A stretch of DNA of 64,000 nucleotides from Chloroflexota bacterium (GTDB taxonomy: Bacteria > Chloroflexota > Chloroflexia > Chloroflexales > Roseiflexaceae), in NCBI GenBank assembly GCA_013388755.1, contig JACAEQ010000070.1:62001-126000 (forward strand), written 5' to 3'. Shown one piece after another: positions 4,253 to 51,790 of the stretch. The stretch's first letter is position 1, and the number at the start of each line of letters is the position of its first letter. The translations under genes were made by a program, and so were the position numbers. The notes under the pieces are model-generated. The model searched no databases. It was given only the letters and a program-made list of their open reading frames with translations, and had not been told where the DNA came from.

Positions 4253-5071
4253 TCAAAATCCTACATCGCCGGTGTGAATCGCATGTTGCCTGCCTGTTGT
4301 GTCACGCAACAGCAATGTCCCATCGGAAGCGACATCCTCCGCAATGCCGCTTATCTCACCGCCTGGCAATCGCACGGTAATCAGCTCACCCATCCACTCC
4401 AGCCGGGCGCGCCATTCCGCAAACAGGGACGTATGCGCTCCGGTATGCAACAGCATGTAGCGTTCGTCAAGGCGCGCCAGCAGCGCTTCCAGCAAGGGCG
4501 CGCGCTCAACGCTCCGGCCGGCGACGGCGCTCAGGCTGGTGGCAGTGACACGTAGATCACGCCCGTCCACCGTTTCATCGGGGGCCTGATTGACATTCAC
4601 ACCGATCCCGATCACGGCCCACTCAATATGGTCGCCCGCAATACTCAATTCGGTCAGGATGCCGGCGGCCTTGCGCAACCCATCGGTAGCCGGTAGGAGC
4701 AGATCGTTCGGCCATTTCAGTCGCGCCGCAATGGGGACGGTTCGCTCCACCGCCTCACATAGCGCCAGCGCGGCAAGCATCGTCAATGTAAACGCCTCAG
4801 CCGGTGGCAACCAGGTGGGCCGCAGCAACACCGATAGGAGCAGCGCCTCACCATACGGTGCGATCCAGCTCCGACCCACCCGGCCTCGCCCGGCTGATTG
4901 CTCTTCGGCCAGTACCACCAGCCCTTCCGGATGGCCGGCACGCGCCTGCTGCCTCGCAAGTTCACTGGTTGATGCAACCCGTTCGTACCGTGCAAGCACG
5001 TTGCCGATGATGCGCGTGTCAAGGCGGCGGCGCAGTGCCGCCAGATCGAGATCTTCAGGAAGCGGCGCCAT
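4253..5071 (-). CDS. birA: Biotin--[acetyl-CoA-carboxylase] ligase
   Basis: This enzyme activates biotin as biotinyl-AMP and transfers it to the lysine of biotin carboxyl carrier protein. The biotin/ATP loop GRGRVGRSW is at residues 61-69, KWPND at 119-123, and the GIGVNVNQ motif of the central sheet follows near 155. The C-terminal SH3-like domain ends in RQHAIHTGDVGF. At 272 residues with no N-terminal winged helix it is the monofunctional (class I) form, so it should not repress a biotin operon. No strong Shine-Dalgarno is visible. A TGGTATACT extended -10 on this strand lies 39-47 nt upstream. Divergent from the ANTAR regulator. Confidence 0.93.
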   Translation of the reverse strand: MAPLPEDLDLAALRRRLDTRIIGNVLARYERVASTSELARQQARAGHPEGLVVLAEEQSAGRGRVGRSWIAPYGEALLLSVLLRPTWLPPAEAFTLTMLAALALCEAVERTVPIAARLKWPNDLLLPATDGLRKAAGILTELSIAGDHIEWAVIGIGVNVNQAPDETVDGRDLRVTATSLSAVAGRSVERAPLLEALLARLDERYMLLHTGAHTSLFAEWRARLEWMGELITVRLPGGEISGIAEDVASDGTLLLRDTTGRQHAIHTGDVGF

Positions 5072-5109: not shown

Positions 5110-5118
5110 AGTATACCA
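5110..5118 (-). promoter_or_regulatory. Extended -10 promoter element for birA
   Basis: The minus strand reads TGGTATACT, i.e. TGn followed by TATACT, giving a predicted start point about 30 nt before the birA ATG. The same string type occurs before several other genes of this window. Confidence 0.55.
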
Positions 5119-5160
5119 TGTGAACACGATTGCGTTTCCTTGACCACGCATTGCGCAGTA

Positions 5161-5169
5161 TGCTATACT
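5161..5169 (+). promoter_or_regulatory. Extended -10 promoter element for the ANTAR regulator
   Basis: TGCTATACT (TGn + TATACT) lies 84 nt before the ATG at 5253, leaving a 5' leader of about 75 nt. It is back-to-back with the birA promoter element. Confidence 0.5.
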
Positions 5170-8009: not shown

Positions 8010-8018
8010 TGGTATACT
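8010..8018 (+). promoter_or_regulatory. Extended -10 element, leaderless Uma2 gene
   Basis: TGGTATACT ends 7 nt before the ATG at 8026. Transcription would start at or just beside the start codon, which implies a leaderless mRNA; no Shine-Dalgarno sequence is present. Confidence 0.6.
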
Positions 8019-8025
8019 ATAGGGC

Positions 8026-8922
8026 ATGACGACGCAAATCACACAACCTGAAGCCGCCGCCACGCCGCCCGACGCCGATCCCTGGCGTTATGGCTGGCGT
8101 TATGTGCGCCGCCCGCTCCCGCTCGACTCGGAGAACTGGGAACGGGTTCCCCTTACATTGCAGGATGTGTTGCACCCCGAAATGGGAGACACGATTGTGC
8201 ACAGCGACCGGCATGAGACTGATCGCATGTACCTGACACAGGTGTTGCGTGCGCGGCTGGAACCCGCCGGTATCGCGTCGGTGATGACTGACATGCGCGT
8301 GGTGTGGGACACGCCCGACATTCGGCCGCATAGCCCGGATATCATGGTTGTTCCCGGCGCGCATGATCGTCATAACCTGAGTACCTTGGATGTCGCCGCC
8401 GAGGGAGTGCGCCCGGCACTGATTATTGAACTGGCGTCACCTGAAACCCGGCGTAATGATCTGTTTGATAAAGTGATGCATTATGAACGGGTAGGCGTGG
8501 CGCAGTATGTCATTGTGGATGACGATGGGCGCAGCGGCGAACGGCGGCTCCGGCTCCTGGGCTATCGCCTGGTGTTAGATGCCTATCAGGCGCAGGCGCT
8601 TGATGACCAGGGCCGGCTCTGGCTGGATATTGCCGGCATCTGGCTCGGCGTGCGCGGCGATCGTGTGGCATGTTATGATGAGCGCGGTGAGGAAATCGGC
8701 GACTATCTTGCGGTCGCGCGCGCTGCTGAGGCTGCCGAGAGCCGCGCCGCGGCAGAAGCCCGTGCCCGCGCCGAGGCCGAGATCCGCGCCGCGGCGGAAG
8801 CCCGTGCCCGCGCCGAGGCCGAGAGCCGCGCCGCGGCAGAAGCCCGTGCCCGCGCCGAGGCAGAAGAACGGCTCCGCACGCTTGAGGCGGAATTGCGCCG
8901 TCTACGCGGCGAAACAGCGTAG
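8026..8922 (+). CDS. Uma2-family (DUF820) PD-(D/E)XK nuclease-like protein with coiled-coil tail
   Basis: Residues about 30-195 are a Uma2/DUF820 domain of the PD-(D/E)XK fold: RPHSPDIMVVPG provides the first acidic residue, IIELASPETRRNDLFDK the E-x-K type core, and YERVGVAQYVIVDDDG the following strand. Residues 230-298 form an Ala/Glu/Arg-rich coiled coil with three 14-residue repeats (ESRAAAEARARAEA type). Uma2 proteins are strongly amplified in Cyanobacteria and Chloroflexota; a role as endonuclease is inferred from fold, and the biological job is unknown. A paralogue lies at 33168. Both lie inside the polysaccharide locus and both appear leaderless. An alternative is a mobile-element-derived nuclease. 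Confidence 0.85.
   Translation: MTTQITQPEAAATPPDADPWRYGWRYVRRPLPLDSENWERVPLTLQDVLHPEMGDTIVHSDRHETDRMYLTQVLRARLEPAGIASVMTDMRVVWDTPDIRPHSPDIMVVPGAHDRHNLSTLDVAAEGVRPALIIELASPETRRNDLFDKVMHYERVGVAQYVIVDDDGRSGERRLRLLGYRLVLDAYQAQALDDQGRLWLDIAGIWLGVRGDRVACYDERGEEIGDYLAVARAAEAAESRAAAEARARAEAEIRAAAEARARAEAESRAAAEARARAEAEERLRTLEAELRRLRGETA
8737..8862 (+). repeat. Three 42-bp in-frame tandem repeats in the Uma2 coiled coil
   Basis: Three units of 42 bp encode ESRAAAEARARAEA, EIRAAAEARARAEA and ESRAAAEARARAEA. Each unit is two heptads, so copy-number change would lengthen or shorten the coiled coil without altering frame or phase. Confidence 0.85.
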
Positions 8923-13128: not shown

Positions 13129-13137
13129 TGCTATAAT
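13129..13137 (+). promoter_or_regulatory. Extended -10 promoter of the wzt operon
   Basis: TGCTATAAT matches the extended -10 consensus exactly. The predicted leader to the wzt ATG is about 100 nt and contains a small GGCAAG/CTTGCC hairpin near 13180-13203. The remainder of the 391-bp gap from 12853 holds only the terminator above. Confidence 0.65.
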
Positions 13138-13243
13138 GCGGCGCGCCAGAGTGAACCAGTAACAGCATGAGCACCTTTGAAGGCAAGTTGACGCGCCTTG
13201 CCGCCGGGCATGGAGGGGTGTTCAGGGAACCTGCACTTCGGAT

Positions 13244-14698
13244 ATGACAGCACAGGTCAGCACGGCGGAACCAACGACGGCATCGGCATCGCATTCAGAC
13301 GACGTTCTCATCAGTGTGCGAAACGTCGGGAAGATGTACCGCATGTACGATCAGCCACAGGACCGGCTGAAGCACATGCTGCTGTGGCGCTTCGGTAAGC
13401 ACTATGGTCACGATTTCTGGGCGCTGCGCAATGCAAGTTTTGAAGTGCGGCGTGGTGAGACGGTTGGCATTATCGGGCGCAACGGCAGCGGCAAGAGCAC
13501 ATTGCTGCAGATCATCGCCGGCACGCTGGCGCCGACCGAGGGCGAGGTGCAGGTGAAGGGTCGGGTGGCGGCGCTGCTGGAGTTGGGGAGCGGCTTCAAC
13601 CCGGAGTTCACGGGGCGCGAGAATGTGTACCTCAACGGGGCATTGCTCGGTCTACGCCGTGAAGAGATTGACGCTCGTTTCGACGATATTGCCGCATTTG
13701 CAGACATTGGTGAGTTCATTGAGCAACCTGTCAAGCTATACAGCAGCGGCATGTTTGTGCGCCTGGCGTTCGCAGTGACGACCAACCTGGAGCCCGATGT
13801 TTTGCTGATCGACGAGGCGCTCGCAGTCGGTGATGTGTTCTTCAGTCAGAAGTGCTACCGGCGACTGGAAGAAATGCGTACACGGGGGACATCGATCGTT
13901 CTCGTCTCCCACAATCTGGTAGACATCCAGCAGTTTTGCGGCGATGCGTTGTTGCTTCATGCCGGGCAAATGGCTTTCAAGGGTTCAGCGTCTGAAGCAG
14001 TACGGCGCTACATGCTGCTCGATCAGCACGAACAGCGACCATCTCCAGCAACCACACGACAACTGGATCCTGCCGCTGAGCCGATTCGGCACAGCAAGCC
14101 TGGCCACCTGTCCTGGCCCTCCTCCGAGGCATTTCTCAACCTGACTGCAGTGAAGCAAGTAGCAGACGGCAGTGCGCGCTGTACCGGCATAGCTGTCTGC
14201 GACACGCATGGTCGTGCACGCCATACCTTTGAACAGGGGGAGCATGCCGTATTCTTCTATGAGTTTGAGGTGCTGCGCGAGATCAGTGTGCCAATCGGCG
14301 GGTTGATCCTGAGAGATAACAAAGGGGTGACGGTGCACGGCAAGAATAGCTTACAGGTTGATGCGAATGTCCCGAGCCATGTCGAGTGTGGTGATCGTGT
14401 GCGTTTTCAGCAGGAGATTCAGCTTAGTGTTGCGATTGGCGATTATTCTTTCGAAGTCGGACTCTCGTCGCTGGAACATGGCATCTTCGAGCAGCGTGCT
14501 GCATACGCTCATCCTGATCTCTATAGTCATATCCAGTATCACTGCCATCTCCCTTCCGCTGGTGTTATAACCGTATCTTACCGGCGACAAGGCTATCCGA
14601 CACAGTTGATGCACCACGGCGTAGCCGATCTGCCAGGAACTATCCACGTTGCGGTGTTGCCCGCTCAAGCGGCGGAGGATGACAGACGTGACCCGTGA
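13244..14698 (+). CDS. wzt: Polysaccharide ABC exporter ATPase with C-terminal carbohydrate-binding domain
   Basis: A 484-residue ATPase partner of Wzm. Walker A GRNGSGKS is at 78-85, the Wzt-type signature YSSGM at 166-170, Walker B DVLLIDE at 185-191, and the H-loop His at 223. Residues about 290-450 resemble the Wzt C-terminal beta sandwich (FLNLTAVK, GEHAVFFYEFEVL, GDYSFEVGLSS), which in E. coli O9a-type systems recognises the modified non-reducing end of the finished chain. That fits the methyltransferases that follow directly. A second, truncated copy lies at 31574. The next gene overlaps its 3' end by 11 bp, so the genes are probably translationally coupled. Confidence 0.95.
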   Translation: MTAQVSTAEPTTASASHSDDVLISVRNVGKMYRMYDQPQDRLKHMLLWRFGKHYGHDFWALRNASFEVRRGETVGIIGRNGSGKSTLLQIIAGTLAPTEGEVQVKGRVAALLELGSGFNPEFTGRENVYLNGALLGLRREEIDARFDDIAAFADIGEFIEQPVKLYSSGMFVRLAFAVTTNLEPDVLLIDEALAVGDVFFSQKCYRRLEEMRTRGTSIVLVSHNLVDIQQFCGDALLLHAGQMAFKGSASEAVRRYMLLDQHEQRPSPATTRQLDPAAEPIRHSKPGHLSWPSSEAFLNLTAVKQVADGSARCTGIAVCDTHGRARHTFEQGEHAVFFYEFEVLREISVPIGGLILRDNKGVTVHGKNSLQVDANVPSHVECGDRVRFQQEIQLSVAIGDYSFEVGLSSLEHGIFEQRAAYAHPDLYSHIQYHCHLPSAGVITVSYRRQGYPTQLMHHGVADLPGTIHVAVLPAQAAEDDRRDP

Positions 14699-33152: not shown

Positions 33153-33161
33153 TGCTATACT
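33153..33161 (+). promoter_or_regulatory. Extended -10 element, leaderless second Uma2 gene
   Basis: TGCTATACT ends 6 nt before the ATG at 33168, as in the first Uma2 gene. No Shine-Dalgarno sequence is visible. Confidence 0.6.
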
Positions 33162-33167
33162 ACAGCT

Positions 33168-34040
33168 ATGACAACCTCCGCCGCCCAACCTGATACTGCC
33201 GCCACGCCGCCCGACGCCGACCCCTGGCGCTATGGCTGGCGTTATGTGCGCCGGCCACTGCCGCTCGACTCCGAGCACTGGGAGCGCGTGCCCCTCACCC
33301 TGCAAGATGTCTTGCACCCTGAAGTCGGAGACTTTATTGTGCACAGCGACCGCCACGAGACGGACCGCATGTACCTTGCCCAGGTGTTGCGCGCTCGCCT
33401 CGAACCTCCCGGCGTTGCCATCGTCCTGAGCGATGTGCGTATCGCCTGGGATATGCCGGATATCCGGCCGCACGGCCCGGATGTGATGGTCATTCCCGGG
33501 CTACGCGAACGGCGCAACTGGAGCACCTTCGAGGTGGCCGTCGAGGGCACACGCCCGATGCTGATCATCGAAATTACGTCGCCGGAGACACGCCGCAATG
33601 ACCTGTTCGACAAAGTGGAGCACTATGCGCGCGCCGGTGTGGCGCAGTACGTGATTGTGGACGACATCGGGCGCGGCGGGGAGCGACGGCTGCGCCTGCT
33701 GGGGTACCGCCTGGCACTCGATGTCTACCAGTCGCAGGCCCTCGATGACCACGGACGGCTGTGGCTGGATGTGGCCGGGCTGTGGCTCGGGGTGCAGGAT
33801 GACCACGTGGTCTGTTATGATGAGCAGGGTGTGGCGATTGGCGACTACACCGCAGTGGTGCGCGCGGCGGCAGAGGCGCAGCAGCGCGCCGACGCCGAGG
33901 AGCGTGCCCGCGCCGAGGCTGAGGAACGCGCCAGTGCCGCCGAGGAGCGCGCGGCGGCAGAGGCCCGCGCCCGCGCCGACGCCGAGGAGCGCTTACGCGC
34001 ACTGGAAGCAGAGTTGCGCCGGCTGCGCGCCACGGAATAG
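33168..34040 (+). CDS. Uma2-family (DUF820) nuclease-like protein, paralogue of 8026
   Basis: A 290-residue paralogue of the Uma2 gene at 8026, nearly colinear from AATPPDADPWRYGWRYVRRPLPLDSE to the coiled-coil tail. Core residues are retained: RPHGPDVMVIPG, IIEITSPETRRNDLFDK, YARAGVAQYVIVDD. The tail (about 228-290) is Ala/Glu/Arg-rich but lacks the exact 14-residue repeats of the first copy. It starts 31 bp after the headless glycosyltransferase and ends 1 bp before the next gene, so it may drive expression of the downstream glycosyltransferases from its own promoter. Confidence 0.85.
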   Translation: MTTSAAQPDTAATPPDADPWRYGWRYVRRPLPLDSEHWERVPLTLQDVLHPEVGDFIVHSDRHETDRMYLAQVLRARLEPPGVAIVLSDVRIAWDMPDIRPHGPDVMVIPGLRERRNWSTFEVAVEGTRPMLIIEITSPETRRNDLFDKVEHYARAGVAQYVIVDDIGRGGERRLRLLGYRLALDVYQSQALDDHGRLWLDVAGLWLGVQDDHVVCYDEQGVAIGDYTAVVRAAAEAQQRADAEERARAEAEERASAAEERAAAEARARADAEERLRALEAELRRLRATE

Positions 34041-41207: not shown

Positions 41208-41216
41208 TGCTATAAT
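41208..41216 (+). promoter_or_regulatory. Extended -10 promoter of the MFS gene
   Basis: TGCTATAAT, 41 nt before the ATG at 41258, with no good -35 box. Confidence 0.6.
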
Positions 41217-41257: not shown

Positions 41258-42544
41258 ATGCACCTCCTGTCTCGCTGGCGCAAGGCATGGTCGCAGCCCC
41301 TCGACGTGCAGCAGCAAAATGTGCGCAGCGTCCTGATCGATGGCATCGGTGTTGGTATCGTCACCGGCGTTTCGACCTTTCTTGGCGTGTTTCTCACGCG
41401 CCTTGGCGCGTCACCCTTCCTCGTTGGCTTGCTGACATCGCTCCCGGCGCTGACGGGGATGGTACTGGCGATCCCGGCCGGGCGCTTTCTCGAGCGGCAG
41501 CGCAATATGGTGCCGTGGTACTCGCGGTCGCGCGCGCTCGTGCAGGGTTCCTTCGTCCTGATGGGGTTGACACCTTTCCTCTTCAATCAGGATCTGACGG
41601 CGTATGCCATCATTGCCATCTGGGCGCTGGTCACCATTCCGCAGACGATCGTCAATATCACATTTACGCTGGTCATGGGTGCGGTGGCCGGGCCGCGCCA
41701 GCGCCAGTACCTGATGAGCCGGCGCTGGTCGGTGCTTGGCGCAACAACGGCGATCACGGTCGCGCTGATTGGCGCGTTCCTGGATCTTGTCGTTTTTCCG
41801 CTCAACTACCAGATCGTTTTTGGCGCCTCATTCGTTGGCGGGATGCTGAGCTTTCTGTTCTCGAGCAAGTTGACGATCCCTGATAACCCGCCGCTGGCGG
41901 AAGAAGATACGGCAAAGCAATCATTGCAGGCGTACTTCCGCGATATGCTGGCCGTGCTGCGTGAACAAACGCCGTTTACCCGTTTTGTCATCAGCGCCTT
42001 TGTCTTCAACCTGGGCCTGATGCTGGCGCTGCCACTCTTTCCGCTTTACTGGGTGCGCCAGTTGCATGCCTCGGATTTCTGGATCGGCCTGATCAATATG
42101 ACCAATAATGGTGTATTGCTGGCGGCATACTTTTTCTGGACGGCGATCACGCGGCGAAAAGGGAACGTACTGGTACTGCGCATCTGCCTCTTTGGTCTCG
42201 TGCTCTACCCGTTGCTCACCGCACTGACACCGCGTGTCGAGCCACTGGTCTTCTACGCGGCCCTGGCGGGCGTCTTCGGCGCAGGGCTCAACCTGGTGCT
42301 GTTCGACATGTCGCTCGCAACCGTGCCGCCTGAACGTACGGCCTCCTATATTGCGCTCTATCAGTTGACAACCTATATCGCTACACTGGTGGCGCCACTT
42401 CTGGGGACCTTCCTTGCCGACATGTTCGGGTATACGCCGGCACTGCTGATCAGCGCCGCCTTCCGCTTCGCCGGCGCGGCGCTCTTTGTGGCACTGGGGG
42501 TTGGTATGAGCGCCGCGCAACCACGCGCGGTCAGGGTCACCTGA
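41258..42544 (+). CDS. Major facilitator superfamily transporter
   Basis: 428 residues with about 12 hydrophobic segments in two sets of six. The loop between helices 2 and 3 has GRFLERQRNMVPWY, equivalent to the MFS G-x-x-x-D-R-x-G-R-R motif in position but diverged. A cytoplasmic loop near 205-230 (SSKLTIPDNPPLAEEDTAKQSLQAYFRDML) separates the halves. Substrate not predictable. CGGAG lies about 11 nt upstream. The following gene starts 111 bp later on the same strand. Confidence 0.88.
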   Translation: MHLLSRWRKAWSQPLDVQQQNVRSVLIDGIGVGIVTGVSTFLGVFLTRLGASPFLVGLLTSLPALTGMVLAIPAGRFLERQRNMVPWYSRSRALVQGSFVLMGLTPFLFNQDLTAYAIIAIWALVTIPQTIVNITFTLVMGAVAGPRQRQYLMSRRWSVLGATTAITVALIGAFLDLVVFPLNYQIVFGASFVGGMLSFLFSSKLTIPDNPPLAEEDTAKQSLQAYFRDMLAVLREQTPFTRFVISAFVFNLGLMLALPLFPLYWVRQLHASDFWIGLINMTNNGVLLAAYFFWTAITRRKGNVLVLRICLFGLVLYPLLTALTPRVEPLVFYAALAGVFGAGLNLVLFDMSLATVPPERTASYIALYQLTTYIATLVAPLLGTFLADMFGYTPALLISAAFRFAGAALFVALGVGMSAAQPRAVRVT

Positions 42545-43272: not shown

Positions 43273-43281
43273 TGCTAGAAT
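43273..43281 (+). promoter_or_regulatory. Extended -10 promoter of tRNA-Cys
   Basis: TGCTAGAAT lies 10 bp before the first base of the mature tRNA. Confidence 0.55.
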
Positions 43282-43291
43282 CGCATCAGAG

Positions 43292-43365
<74 letters not shown>

Positions 43366-49629: not shown

Positions 49630-49638
49630 TGCTATACT
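49630..49638 (+). promoter_or_regulatory. Extended -10 element, leaderless glycosidase gene
   Basis: TGCTATACT ends 7 nt before the ATG at 49646; there is no Shine-Dalgarno sequence. Confidence 0.6.
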
Positions 49639-49645
49639 CTGTATC

Positions 49646-51790
49646 ATGCCATTTCCACTCGACGATTATACGCCGCACGGCTATCTCAATACACCCACGC
49701 ATACGCGCAACCTTTCGCCACGCGGCGTACTGCGCTCGCATGGTGCTGGCTTTCGCTGGCACTATCCGGCATATGCCGGTATGTACGGTGGCCGGCGTGA
49801 GACGTACCGCGCCGGCTTTCGGCTCGCGCTTGGCAGCGCGCTTGAGCTGGCAGAGTTTGATGTCGCAACCAGCCCGTACCACTCAAAGAATCTGTTCGAA
49901 CTGGACCTGGCGCATAATGGCGCATCCGCCCACGCAACATTTCACCTGGTCGGCGAACACGCGCTGTGCGCCGCAATCTCCGTCACCGGCGAAACACGCA
50001 TCGCGGTGGTCGTTGAATATACCCGCACCGTTGCCGCTGGCGGCGAGTGGGGCGAATCGGGGCTGGTTGGCCGGGTTGTTGATGGCGACCTGGTCCTGCA
50101 AAGTTTCGAGGATGGTGATGCGTTTGTCTGCCGGGTATCGCGGGCCATCACCGATCTGGGCATCACCACCGACCCGGCGCTCGCCGCCGCATGGGCGTCG
50201 TCGCAGGCGCCCGGCCTGCCGGGTGAAGGGTTCGTGACCGTCACCGGGCGGCGCGGCGAGACCGTGGCGTTGTTTGCCGTACTTGGCTTCACCGGGCCAT
50301 GCGAACGGTTCGACGTCTGTTTGACGCGCGGCAAGACGCTGCGTGTGGCACAACACCGGCAGCGCACCGCGCGCCGTACCGCCGCTGCCGACCGTACGCG
50401 CAAACAGGCCGAGGATGATGCCTTCTGGGCGCGCGCACCAGTGCTGGAAGGCGACTGGCCCGATCACTGGCGGCGCGGCCTGGTCTATGACCTTGAGACC
50501 TTGCGCATGATGGTGCGCGCGCCCGCCGGCATTTACCGTCACATCTGGGACGCCATGCAGATCCATGCGCCGCGTGTTGTGCTGGCTGAGGCGGCCATTG
50601 ACGCTCTGCTGCTCTCCTATGCCGACCCGGCACTGGCGCAACACCTGCTGCTGGGAACCTTCGTTGATGCGCCGGAGCCTAACGTCCCCTGTTCACGCGA
50701 AGATGGCAGCTATAACATGCTTGCCGCTGACGGCACGGTCTGCGGCACCGCACCTGAGTGGGGGTATCCCTGGCTGGTGCTCGACTGGCTGGCGGCAGTC
50801 CATCCGAACCGCGACTGGCTGGCGAGTATCTACCCGTCGCTTGGCGCCTATCTGCACTGGTGGCTCGACCATCGCCGCGACTCCGAGGGCTGGCTGGTGT
50901 ATGCCTGTAGCTGGGAGTCAGGGCAGGACGACTCGCCGCGCTTTGGCGATCAGCCGCTGGGCGGCGGTCACCCGGTGCGTCATGTGCGCCCGGTCGATCT
51001 GCAGGCGGCCTTTGCGCATGCCTGCCTGGTGATGCATGACTTCGCACTCGAACTTGGACACAATGCAGATGTGCAGACCTGGCTTGCGCTGGCCGAAGAA
51101 TATATCGCGCGCACCGATGCGTTGTGGCGCGACTCCCCATCCCCTTCCCATGCCGCTGCCGGCAGCTATGCCGACCATGACACACGTGCCGGGCAGGCCA
51201 CGGACGTCAACGATGTCATGCTCCTGGCGCCAATCACTCTCGGAGTCGCCCGGCCAGGTCGTGTGGATGCGCTGCGTGATGCGATCGAACGGATCGATTC
51301 CGATACGCTGATCTGGCCAATGTTCGCCTGGACGGCGATCGAGGCGGCAACACGCACCGGCCTGTACGACCGGGCCGCTGAACTGGCCGCCGCGATTGTC
51401 GAACGCGCCTATACATTCTGGGATGCGCATCAGGCGCATCCTGACCGTACCCTGCCCGGCGTGGCATGCGAATACTGGCCACCGGACGGTCGTTGCGGCG
51501 GGGAAGGATATGGCTGGGGCGCCTTTACCACCCACCTGCTCCTGCACGTGCTTGTCGGGTTGACCCCCGAACGTGACCGGCTGGTGGTGCGGCCAGATCT
51601 TCCACCGGCCTGGCGCGTCGCCGGGCGGCGCTATGGCGTGCGGCTGAACTGGCGCGATGTCTCCTTCAAAGTCCTCATCGAACCACGGATGAACGGCGTG
51701 GTTGTCACCATTGGTAGGAAGCGCGCCGAGGTGGCATGGGGCGAGGCCGCAGCGTTTACGTGGGAGGAACTTGCGTACGTGGAGTACTAA
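49646..51790 (+). CDS. (alpha/alpha)6-barrel glycoside hydrolase (GH63/MGH1-like)
   Basis: 714 residues. An N-terminal beta-sandwich domain (about 1-240) is followed by an (alpha/alpha)6 barrel (about 275-690). Conserved barrel motifs are AGIYRHIWDAMQIHAP, SREDGSYNMLAADGTVCGTAPEWGYPWLV, YACSWESGQDDSPRF (acid residue region) and EYWPPDGRCGGEGYGWGAFTTHLLLHVLVG, which resembles the GYGW region of GH63/GH37 and mannosylglycerate-hydrolase-like enzymes. Cytoplasmic (no signal peptide). Substrate probably an alpha-glucoside or mannosylglycerate-type solute. Its TAA stop overlaps the left end of MITE-like copy 2. Confidence 0.8.
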   Translation: MPFPLDDYTPHGYLNTPTHTRNLSPRGVLRSHGAGFRWHYPAYAGMYGGRRETYRAGFRLALGSALELAEFDVATSPYHSKNLFELDLAHNGASAHATFHLVGEHALCAAISVTGETRIAVVVEYTRTVAAGGEWGESGLVGRVVDGDLVLQSFEDGDAFVCRVSRAITDLGITTDPALAAAWASSQAPGLPGEGFVTVTGRRGETVALFAVLGFTGPCERFDVCLTRGKTLRVAQHRQRTARRTAAADRTRKQAEDDAFWARAPVLEGDWPDHWRRGLVYDLETLRMMVRAPAGIYRHIWDAMQIHAPRVVLAEAAIDALLLSYADPALAQHLLLGTFVDAPEPNVPCSREDGSYNMLAADGTVCGTAPEWGYPWLVLDWLAAVHPNRDWLASIYPSLGAYLHWWLDHRRDSEGWLVYACSWESGQDDSPRFGDQPLGGGHPVRHVRPVDLQAAFAHACLVMHDFALELGHNADVQTWLALAEEYIARTDALWRDSPSPSHAAAGSYADHDTRAGQATDVNDVMLLAPITLGVARPGRVDALRDAIERIDSDTLIWPMFAWTAIEAATRTGLYDRAAELAAAIVERAYTFWDAHQAHPDRTLPGVACEYWPPDGRCGGEGYGWGAFTTHLLLHVLVGLTPERDRLVVRPDLPPAWRVAGRRYGVRLNWRDVSFKVLIEPRMNGVVVTIGRKRAEVAWGEAAAFTWEELAYVEY

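Follow-up and report, generated by a model that had tools for sequence, protein, structure and literature searches.

Extended −10 elements in the window

The window analysed here, a 64-kb stretch of a 5.08-Mb Chloroflexota genome in 145 contigs (62% GC in an 864-kb sample), contains birA, an ANTAR regulator gene, two Uma2 genes, wzt, an MFS gene, a tRNA-Cys gene and an MGH1-like glycosidase gene, with gene identities at these sites taken from Pfam. TGNTATAMT or a close variant is present ahead of each of these genes, as the original prediction held, and TGNTATAMT itself occurs at seven sites compared with a mean of 0.79 expected, a number reached in none of 100 shuffles. The features are as follows.

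5110..5118, minus strand: TGGTATACT, extended −10 element of birA (Pfam identity), 38 nt from the ATG at 5071; the scan gave no −35
5140..5145, plus strand: TTGACC, −35 element of the ANTAR-gene promoter, spacer 18 nt
5161..5169, plus strand: TGCTATACT, extended −10 element of the ANTAR regulator gene; ATG 5253 at 83 nt with AAGGAG ahead of it, hence leadered
8010..8018, plus strand: TGGTATACT, extended −10 element of the first Uma2 gene, 7 nt from the ATG at 8026
8026..8922, plus strand: first Uma2 gene (PF05685), probably leaderless, with the MTT start common to leaderless-class paralogues
13129..13137, plus strand: TGCTATAAT, extended −10 element upstream of wzt; ATG 13244 (the gene-calling script preferred 13334)
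33153..33161, plus strand: TGCTATACT, extended −10 element of the second Uma2 gene, 6 nt from the ATG at 33168
33168..34040, plus strand: second Uma2 gene (Pfam), probably leaderless, with 77% identity to the first
41208..41216, plus strand: TGCTATAAT, extended −10 element of the MFS gene (Pfam identity), 41 nt from the ATG at 41258
43273..43281, plus strand: TGCTAGAAT, close variant of the extended −10 element, 10 nt ahead of tRNA-Cys (43292-43365)
49630..49638, plus strand: TGCTATACT, extended −10 element of the glycosidase gene, 7 nt from the ATG at 49646
49646..51790, plus strand: MGH1-like glycosidase gene (PF22422), probably leaderless; orthologues align from residue 1

A −10 element some 6–8 nt ahead of the start, with no space for a Shine-Dalgarno sequence, was taken as the mark of a leaderless gene, and is found in three window genes, with gaps of 7, 6 and 7 nt before the ATGs at 8026, 33168 and 49646, in agreement with the three boxes predicted at 6–7 nt. 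The leaderless reading is supported for both Uma2 genes and for the glycosidase gene, where the −10/ATG pair is conserved, and fails for 5161-5169, the coordinates under which it had been entered, since with its TTGACC −35 and an ATG 83 nt away behind AAGGAG this is the most conventional site of the set. The wzt promoter has TTTGCA as its −35, at 17 nt. The promoters of birA and the ANTAR gene point away from each other, with 42 nt between their −10 elements (5110-5169), and a 26-codon ORF (13167-13247) stands between wzt and its promoter, the TGA of this ORF overlapping the wzt ATG (ATGA, 13244-13247); judged by this arrangement, the ORF may encode a leader peptide or serve translational coupling. 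An Rfam search of the leaders for RNA elements at gathering scores matched the tRNA alone.

Distribution and anatomy of the motif

Site statistics were obtained from a sample of 1.2498 Mb that includes the window and represents about a quarter of the genome, with 935 genes called using a codon-hexamer script, whilst genome-wide coverage consisted of counts of TGNTATAMT-to-ATG patterns at 4–9 nt and 0–30 nt. The sampled stretches (L001-L060) are long contigs with TGNTATAMT-N4-9-ATG matches, some ending just short of one, so the counts may be slightly biased: the sample contains 114 TGNTATAMT sites, 100 of them intergenic, as against 30 sites, 12 intergenic, for the reversed motif. TG stands ahead of 100 of the 220 intergenic TATAMT words compared with 14 of the 175 in coding DNA, and the TGNTATAMT sites are oriented towards genes. 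A called start follows within the stretch for 103 of the 114 sites, and the distance to that start is bimodal, with no sites at 0–5 nt, seven at 6–8, three at 9–12 and none at 13–20, followed by 16 at 21–40 nt, 25 at 41–80 and 52 beyond. The enrichment near gene starts on which the original prediction had been staked is therefore borne out (100/114 intergenic, gene-directed, bimodal). At 6–8 nt in the sample, TGNTANNNT occurs 12 times where the 13–20 bin predicts approximately 1.5, whilst non-TG TANNNT occurs 14 times against approximately 18 expected from the same bin. Across the whole genome TGNTATAMT-N4-9-ATG has 51 matches compared with four for the reversed control, and a spacing of 0–30 nt to ATG gives at least 180 compared with at least 30. 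Leaderless starts are a minority, accounting for about ten of the 100 intergenic TGNTATAMT sites in the sample.

Among these 100 intergenic sites the two bases preceding TG lean towards a pyrimidine then a purine, 86 sites have C or G between TG and TATA, and there is a weak T-rich signal at the −35 position. Five or six matches to TTGACA at 16–18 nt were found at ten of the 100, compared with approximately 1% of 5000 random intergenic positions, which upholds the statement that few sites have a −35, with the qualification that 5161-5169 is one that does. None of the ten leaderless-like TG sites has such a match, compared with approximately 23% of the 48 non-TG sites situated up to 150 nt from a start; since the −35 is commoner at non-TG than at TG sites, the two elements seem partly interchangeable. 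The sites therefore have the form of an extended −10 promoter, a TG one base ahead of a hexamer resembling TATAAT, over-represented upstream of genes and with an optional or weak −35. The sigma-A protein encoded in L063 carries WWIRQAITR, HMVETIN and RERIRQIEVKALRKLRHP, the canonical segments that read −10, TG and −35 respectively, and the region 3.0 His and Glu expected of a principal sigma are found in HMVETIN; these we take to be the TG-reading residues. The Sigma70_ner domain (PF04546) had no match in the genome, a result that is uninformative here.

Extended −10 promoters of E. coli and Gram-positive bacteria have TRTGn ahead of the −10 element, an optional −35, and H455 and E458 (E. coli numbering) in sigma region 3.0. 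The present sites share the TRTGn, the optional −35 and the region 3.0 His/Glu, and differ in having C or G between TG and TATA in most cases. Because of the TRTG-like context and the −35 at 16–18 nt, recognition by an alternative sigma or a transcription factor is not favoured by the site sequences. Mycobacterium tuberculosis offers another likeness in its dominant −10, lack of a conserved −35, pyrimidine-purine start site and many leaderless mRNAs, whilst 7% of its TANNNT promoters have TGN, compared with 100 of 220 intergenic TATAMT words with TG here, a narrower motif so that the two figures are not strictly comparable (PMC3898074).

Genes with probable starts directly behind a −10 element

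The DNA of this genome that was analysed for such pairs has 32 distinct TGNTATAMT/ATG pairs at 6–8 nt, 14 of which open a coding-like frame (177-714 codons, two ending at a stretch boundary) and 18 of which do not; by comparison, 731 of 4080 random ATGs, many of them gene-internal, and five of 20 ATGs after non-TG TATAMT open one. A pyrimidine precedes the ATG in 13 of the 14 coding-like pairs compared with six of the 18 others (Fisher p 0.0008), which would fit an mRNA 5′ end placed at the start codon. Three of the 14 genes lie in the window, two of them paralogues, and ten of the 11 outside it were scanned with Pfam, giving two histidine kinases, a sensor-like 7TM/GAF protein, an exonuclease-helicase, an NFACT (RqcH-type) protein, a LytR-CpsA-Psr protein, a PMT glycosyltransferase, a TGT-family transferase, a diacylglycerol-kinase-like protein and a PHB regulator; no shared function stands out amongst these ten. 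At the same spacing other start codons open coding-like frames in small numbers (GTG 2/7, TTG 1/6, CTG 2/8, versus ATG 9/14). By the pattern we used, 265 of 927 called genes have a Shine-Dalgarno sequence compared with 3.5% of random positions, so that most lack one and its absence is by itself weak, non-diagnostic evidence of a leaderless start.

Support for leaderless starts comes instead from −10/ATG pairs that are kept in relatives when the flanking DNA is not. The window glycosidase gene and its six sister-genus orthologues, seven copies in all, have TGCTATACT 6–7 nt before the ATG (6 nt in the orthologues, 7 nt in the window gene), and the orthologues are alike from the first codon at that ATG, whilst the DNA upstream of TG falls into three backgrounds that share 0.20-0.30 identity, one background being a GTTCTC-rich repeat. 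An eighth copy (L082, 58% identity) has no such −10, and three remoter relatives (35-37%) have no such box near their starts. The five named records nearest the window glycosidase (77-80% identity) comprise four from Roseiflexus sp. and one from Chloroflexota, and we describe the bacterium as Roseiflexus-like; in four relatives (L077, L078, L079, L081) a GTTCTCAGTTCTCGG-type short repeat reaches the extended −10 upstream of the gene.

The Uma2 genes behave similarly. From 50 loci, five without a match at E 1e-20 and two duplicates were removed, and the remaining 43 divide into 17 TG-10/ATG loci (including both window genes), 15 with a Shine-Dalgarno sequence and 11 others. The first class was defined by TGNTANNNT lying 5–9 nt before an in-frame ATG; beyond that definition its 17 members all have TATA (TATACT in 16), a gap that is always 6 or 7 nt, a pyrimidine before the ATG and an MTT start, and non-TG TANNNT at that spacing was found at one of the 26 remaining loci. 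Over the 136 pairs of TG-10/ATG loci the 50 nt ahead of TG have a mean identity of 0.267, and in nine pairs with 92-97% coding identity the upstream similarity does not exceed the best of 20 shuffles in seven and exceeds it in two. Homology starts at about the TG, which suggests that these genes were copied, or converted, together with a minimal promoter. Uma2 is amplified in the sister genus, where six genomes have between 18 and 29 matches apiece, fragments among them, compared with five here, and the Uma2 loci (L083-L132) include both MTT-type leaderless copies and Shine-Dalgarno-led copies, mostly of MTQT, MTRT or MTHT type. A 2009 paper describes Uma2 (COG4636) as a likely solo toxin family, occurring mostly as paralogue cassettes in cyanobacteria (PMC2701414).

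The rqcH (NFACT) gene, matched in 58 of the 60 genomes of the order, is less constant: 30 loci were obtained, 29 of them usable, and a TG −10 lies 6–10 nt before the start in eight, the other 21 having a Shine-Dalgarno sequence, a distant promoter or nothing recognisable. The leaderless state is thus not fixed, and deep conservation of a single leaderless start is rejected for this gene. Together with L082 and the 18 of 32 pairs that lack a coding-like frame, these 21 loci count against a leaderless model.

With these exceptions in mind, we consider it highly probable from the sequence patterns that the sites are sigma-A extended −10 promoters and that a minority of them abut their gene, including those of the putatively leaderless Uma2 pair and glycosidase. 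Housekeeping sigma-A RNA polymerase would use TG at −15/−14 together with TATAAT or TATACT, any −35 being optional and weak. Most genes would have their promoter at least 21 nt upstream, with space for a leader; in the minority the abutting promoter would set the transcription start at, or within 1–2 nt of, the A of the AUG, and on the resulting leaderless mRNA, without a Shine-Dalgarno sequence, the ribosome would initiate directly at the 5′-terminal AUG. We thus infer transcript 5′ ends, use of sigma-A and 70S initiation. A −10 box adjoining the start codon was read as leaderless in the same way by Zheng 2011 (PMC3160421), where a TA-like signal approximately 12 bp before the start marks a leaderless gene and was reported for 4.0-5.7% of the genes in four of 12 Chloroflexi genomes; initiation without a Shine-Dalgarno sequence is also treated by phylum in PMC5397173. 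A literature search, with most subscription papers outside its scope, found no transcript-start map for this lineage.

Chance or base composition might generate TATA-like words that have no promoter function, and non-TG words of this type are common (281 in the sample, 120 of them intergenic), but for the TG form the shuffles, the reversed and complemented motifs, the substitution of other dinucleotides for TG and the orientation of the sites contradict chance. It is excluded for the set and, although any single site could still be a chance match, we regard it as a most improbable explanation.

The start codons themselves are predicted, and if they were wrong these would be ordinary promoters with the true starts downstream, behind a leader with a Shine-Dalgarno sequence; L017 has such an in-frame alternative six codons on, and in the protein encoded by L178 residue 11 is again a Met. 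This seems quite unlikely given the glycosidase orthologues that are alike from codon 1, the MTT start common to 17 Uma2 copies and, by our Shine-Dalgarno pattern, the lack of an ATG or GTG led in this way within approximately 50 codons in 13 of the 14 coding-like genes. Several of these genes also have a same-strand gene upstream, so that the −10 could be real whilst the main transcription came from promoters further upstream and most mRNA was leadered, but the retention of the −10/ATG pair whilst other upstream DNA has been replaced would be odd for a minor promoter, and we judge this explanation unlikely. The reading of abutting sigma-A promoters with leaderless starts yields, for this lineage, a list of probable leaderless genes that is supported by conservation and aids start annotation.

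TG reliance across the Chloroflexota

A survey of 400 genomes of the phylum found TGNTATAMT-N6-8-ATG in 273 and TATAMT-N6-8-ATG in 396. For 142 of the 400, in chosen families, we calculated the TG share, i.e. the TG part of the excess over reversed controls, which is not GC-controlled; families f12, f16, f17, f18, f25, f43 and f49 fall entirely, and f24 mostly, among the other 258 genomes. Among controls the TG share was 0.02-0.07.

Own family: TG share 0.57 (9 genomes)
Rest of the order: 0.55 (31 genomes)
f5: 0.34 (11 genomes)
f15: 0.58 (11 genomes)
f24, genus g62: 0.35 (6 genomes)
f46: 0.22 (10 genomes)
f13: 0.16 (24 genomes)
f29: 0.02 (7 genomes)
f27: 0.00 (33 genomes)

Whilst the extended −10 promoter and the leaderless kind of gene are known, and were reported before for Chloroflexi, the reliance on TG looks new: TG accounts for approximately 55–57% of the excess leaderless-spaced TATAMT in the order, 16% in f13 and approximately 0% in f27 and f29. 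According to Zheng 2011 (PMC3160421), TG is strong when genomic GC is low (Lactococcus) and weak when it is high, whereas here, in a genome of approximately 62% GC, the majority of the order's excess leaderless-spaced boxes have TG.

Somewhat tentatively, we propose that in this order the extended −10 is self-sufficient, a gene plus 15–16 nt making a complete expression unit; that Uma2 paralogues have spread among Roseiflexus-type genomes with that promoter only, their coding identity of up to 97% beginning close to the TG, upstream of which the DNA is unrelated, whilst sister paralogues use Shine-Dalgarno sequences; and that TG reliance of leaderless promoters is a lineage trait that comes and goes inside a single phylum, with sigma keeping its presumed TG-reading residues. 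Two parts merit further attention, namely how TG reliance is distributed over lineages and the Uma2 copies that carry a minimal promoter. If true, a TG-rich order beside TG-free families would make promoter-type evolution directly testable, and leaderless and Shine-Dalgarno-led Uma2 paralogues side by side would do the same for the evolution of translation starts.

Loss of the TG-reading sigma residues in low-TG families was not borne out, as H and E are kept in f13 (HLFES), f29 (HLVET) and f27 (HMVET). This check used the longest sigma found per family, with 11 of 12 genomes matched (none in the f27 genome G306) and several loci without a readable WWIR segment; in the longest sigmas of f1, f13, f15, f27 and f29, which we read as the principal sigmas, the region 3.0 His and Glu are both present. 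In the longest f13 and f29 sigmas (L151, L152, L157, L158) the PF04539 match is split by a region 3 insertion of approximately 25 residues, which the sigmas of the window's family and of f15 lack; the f27 sigma has a short insertion only.
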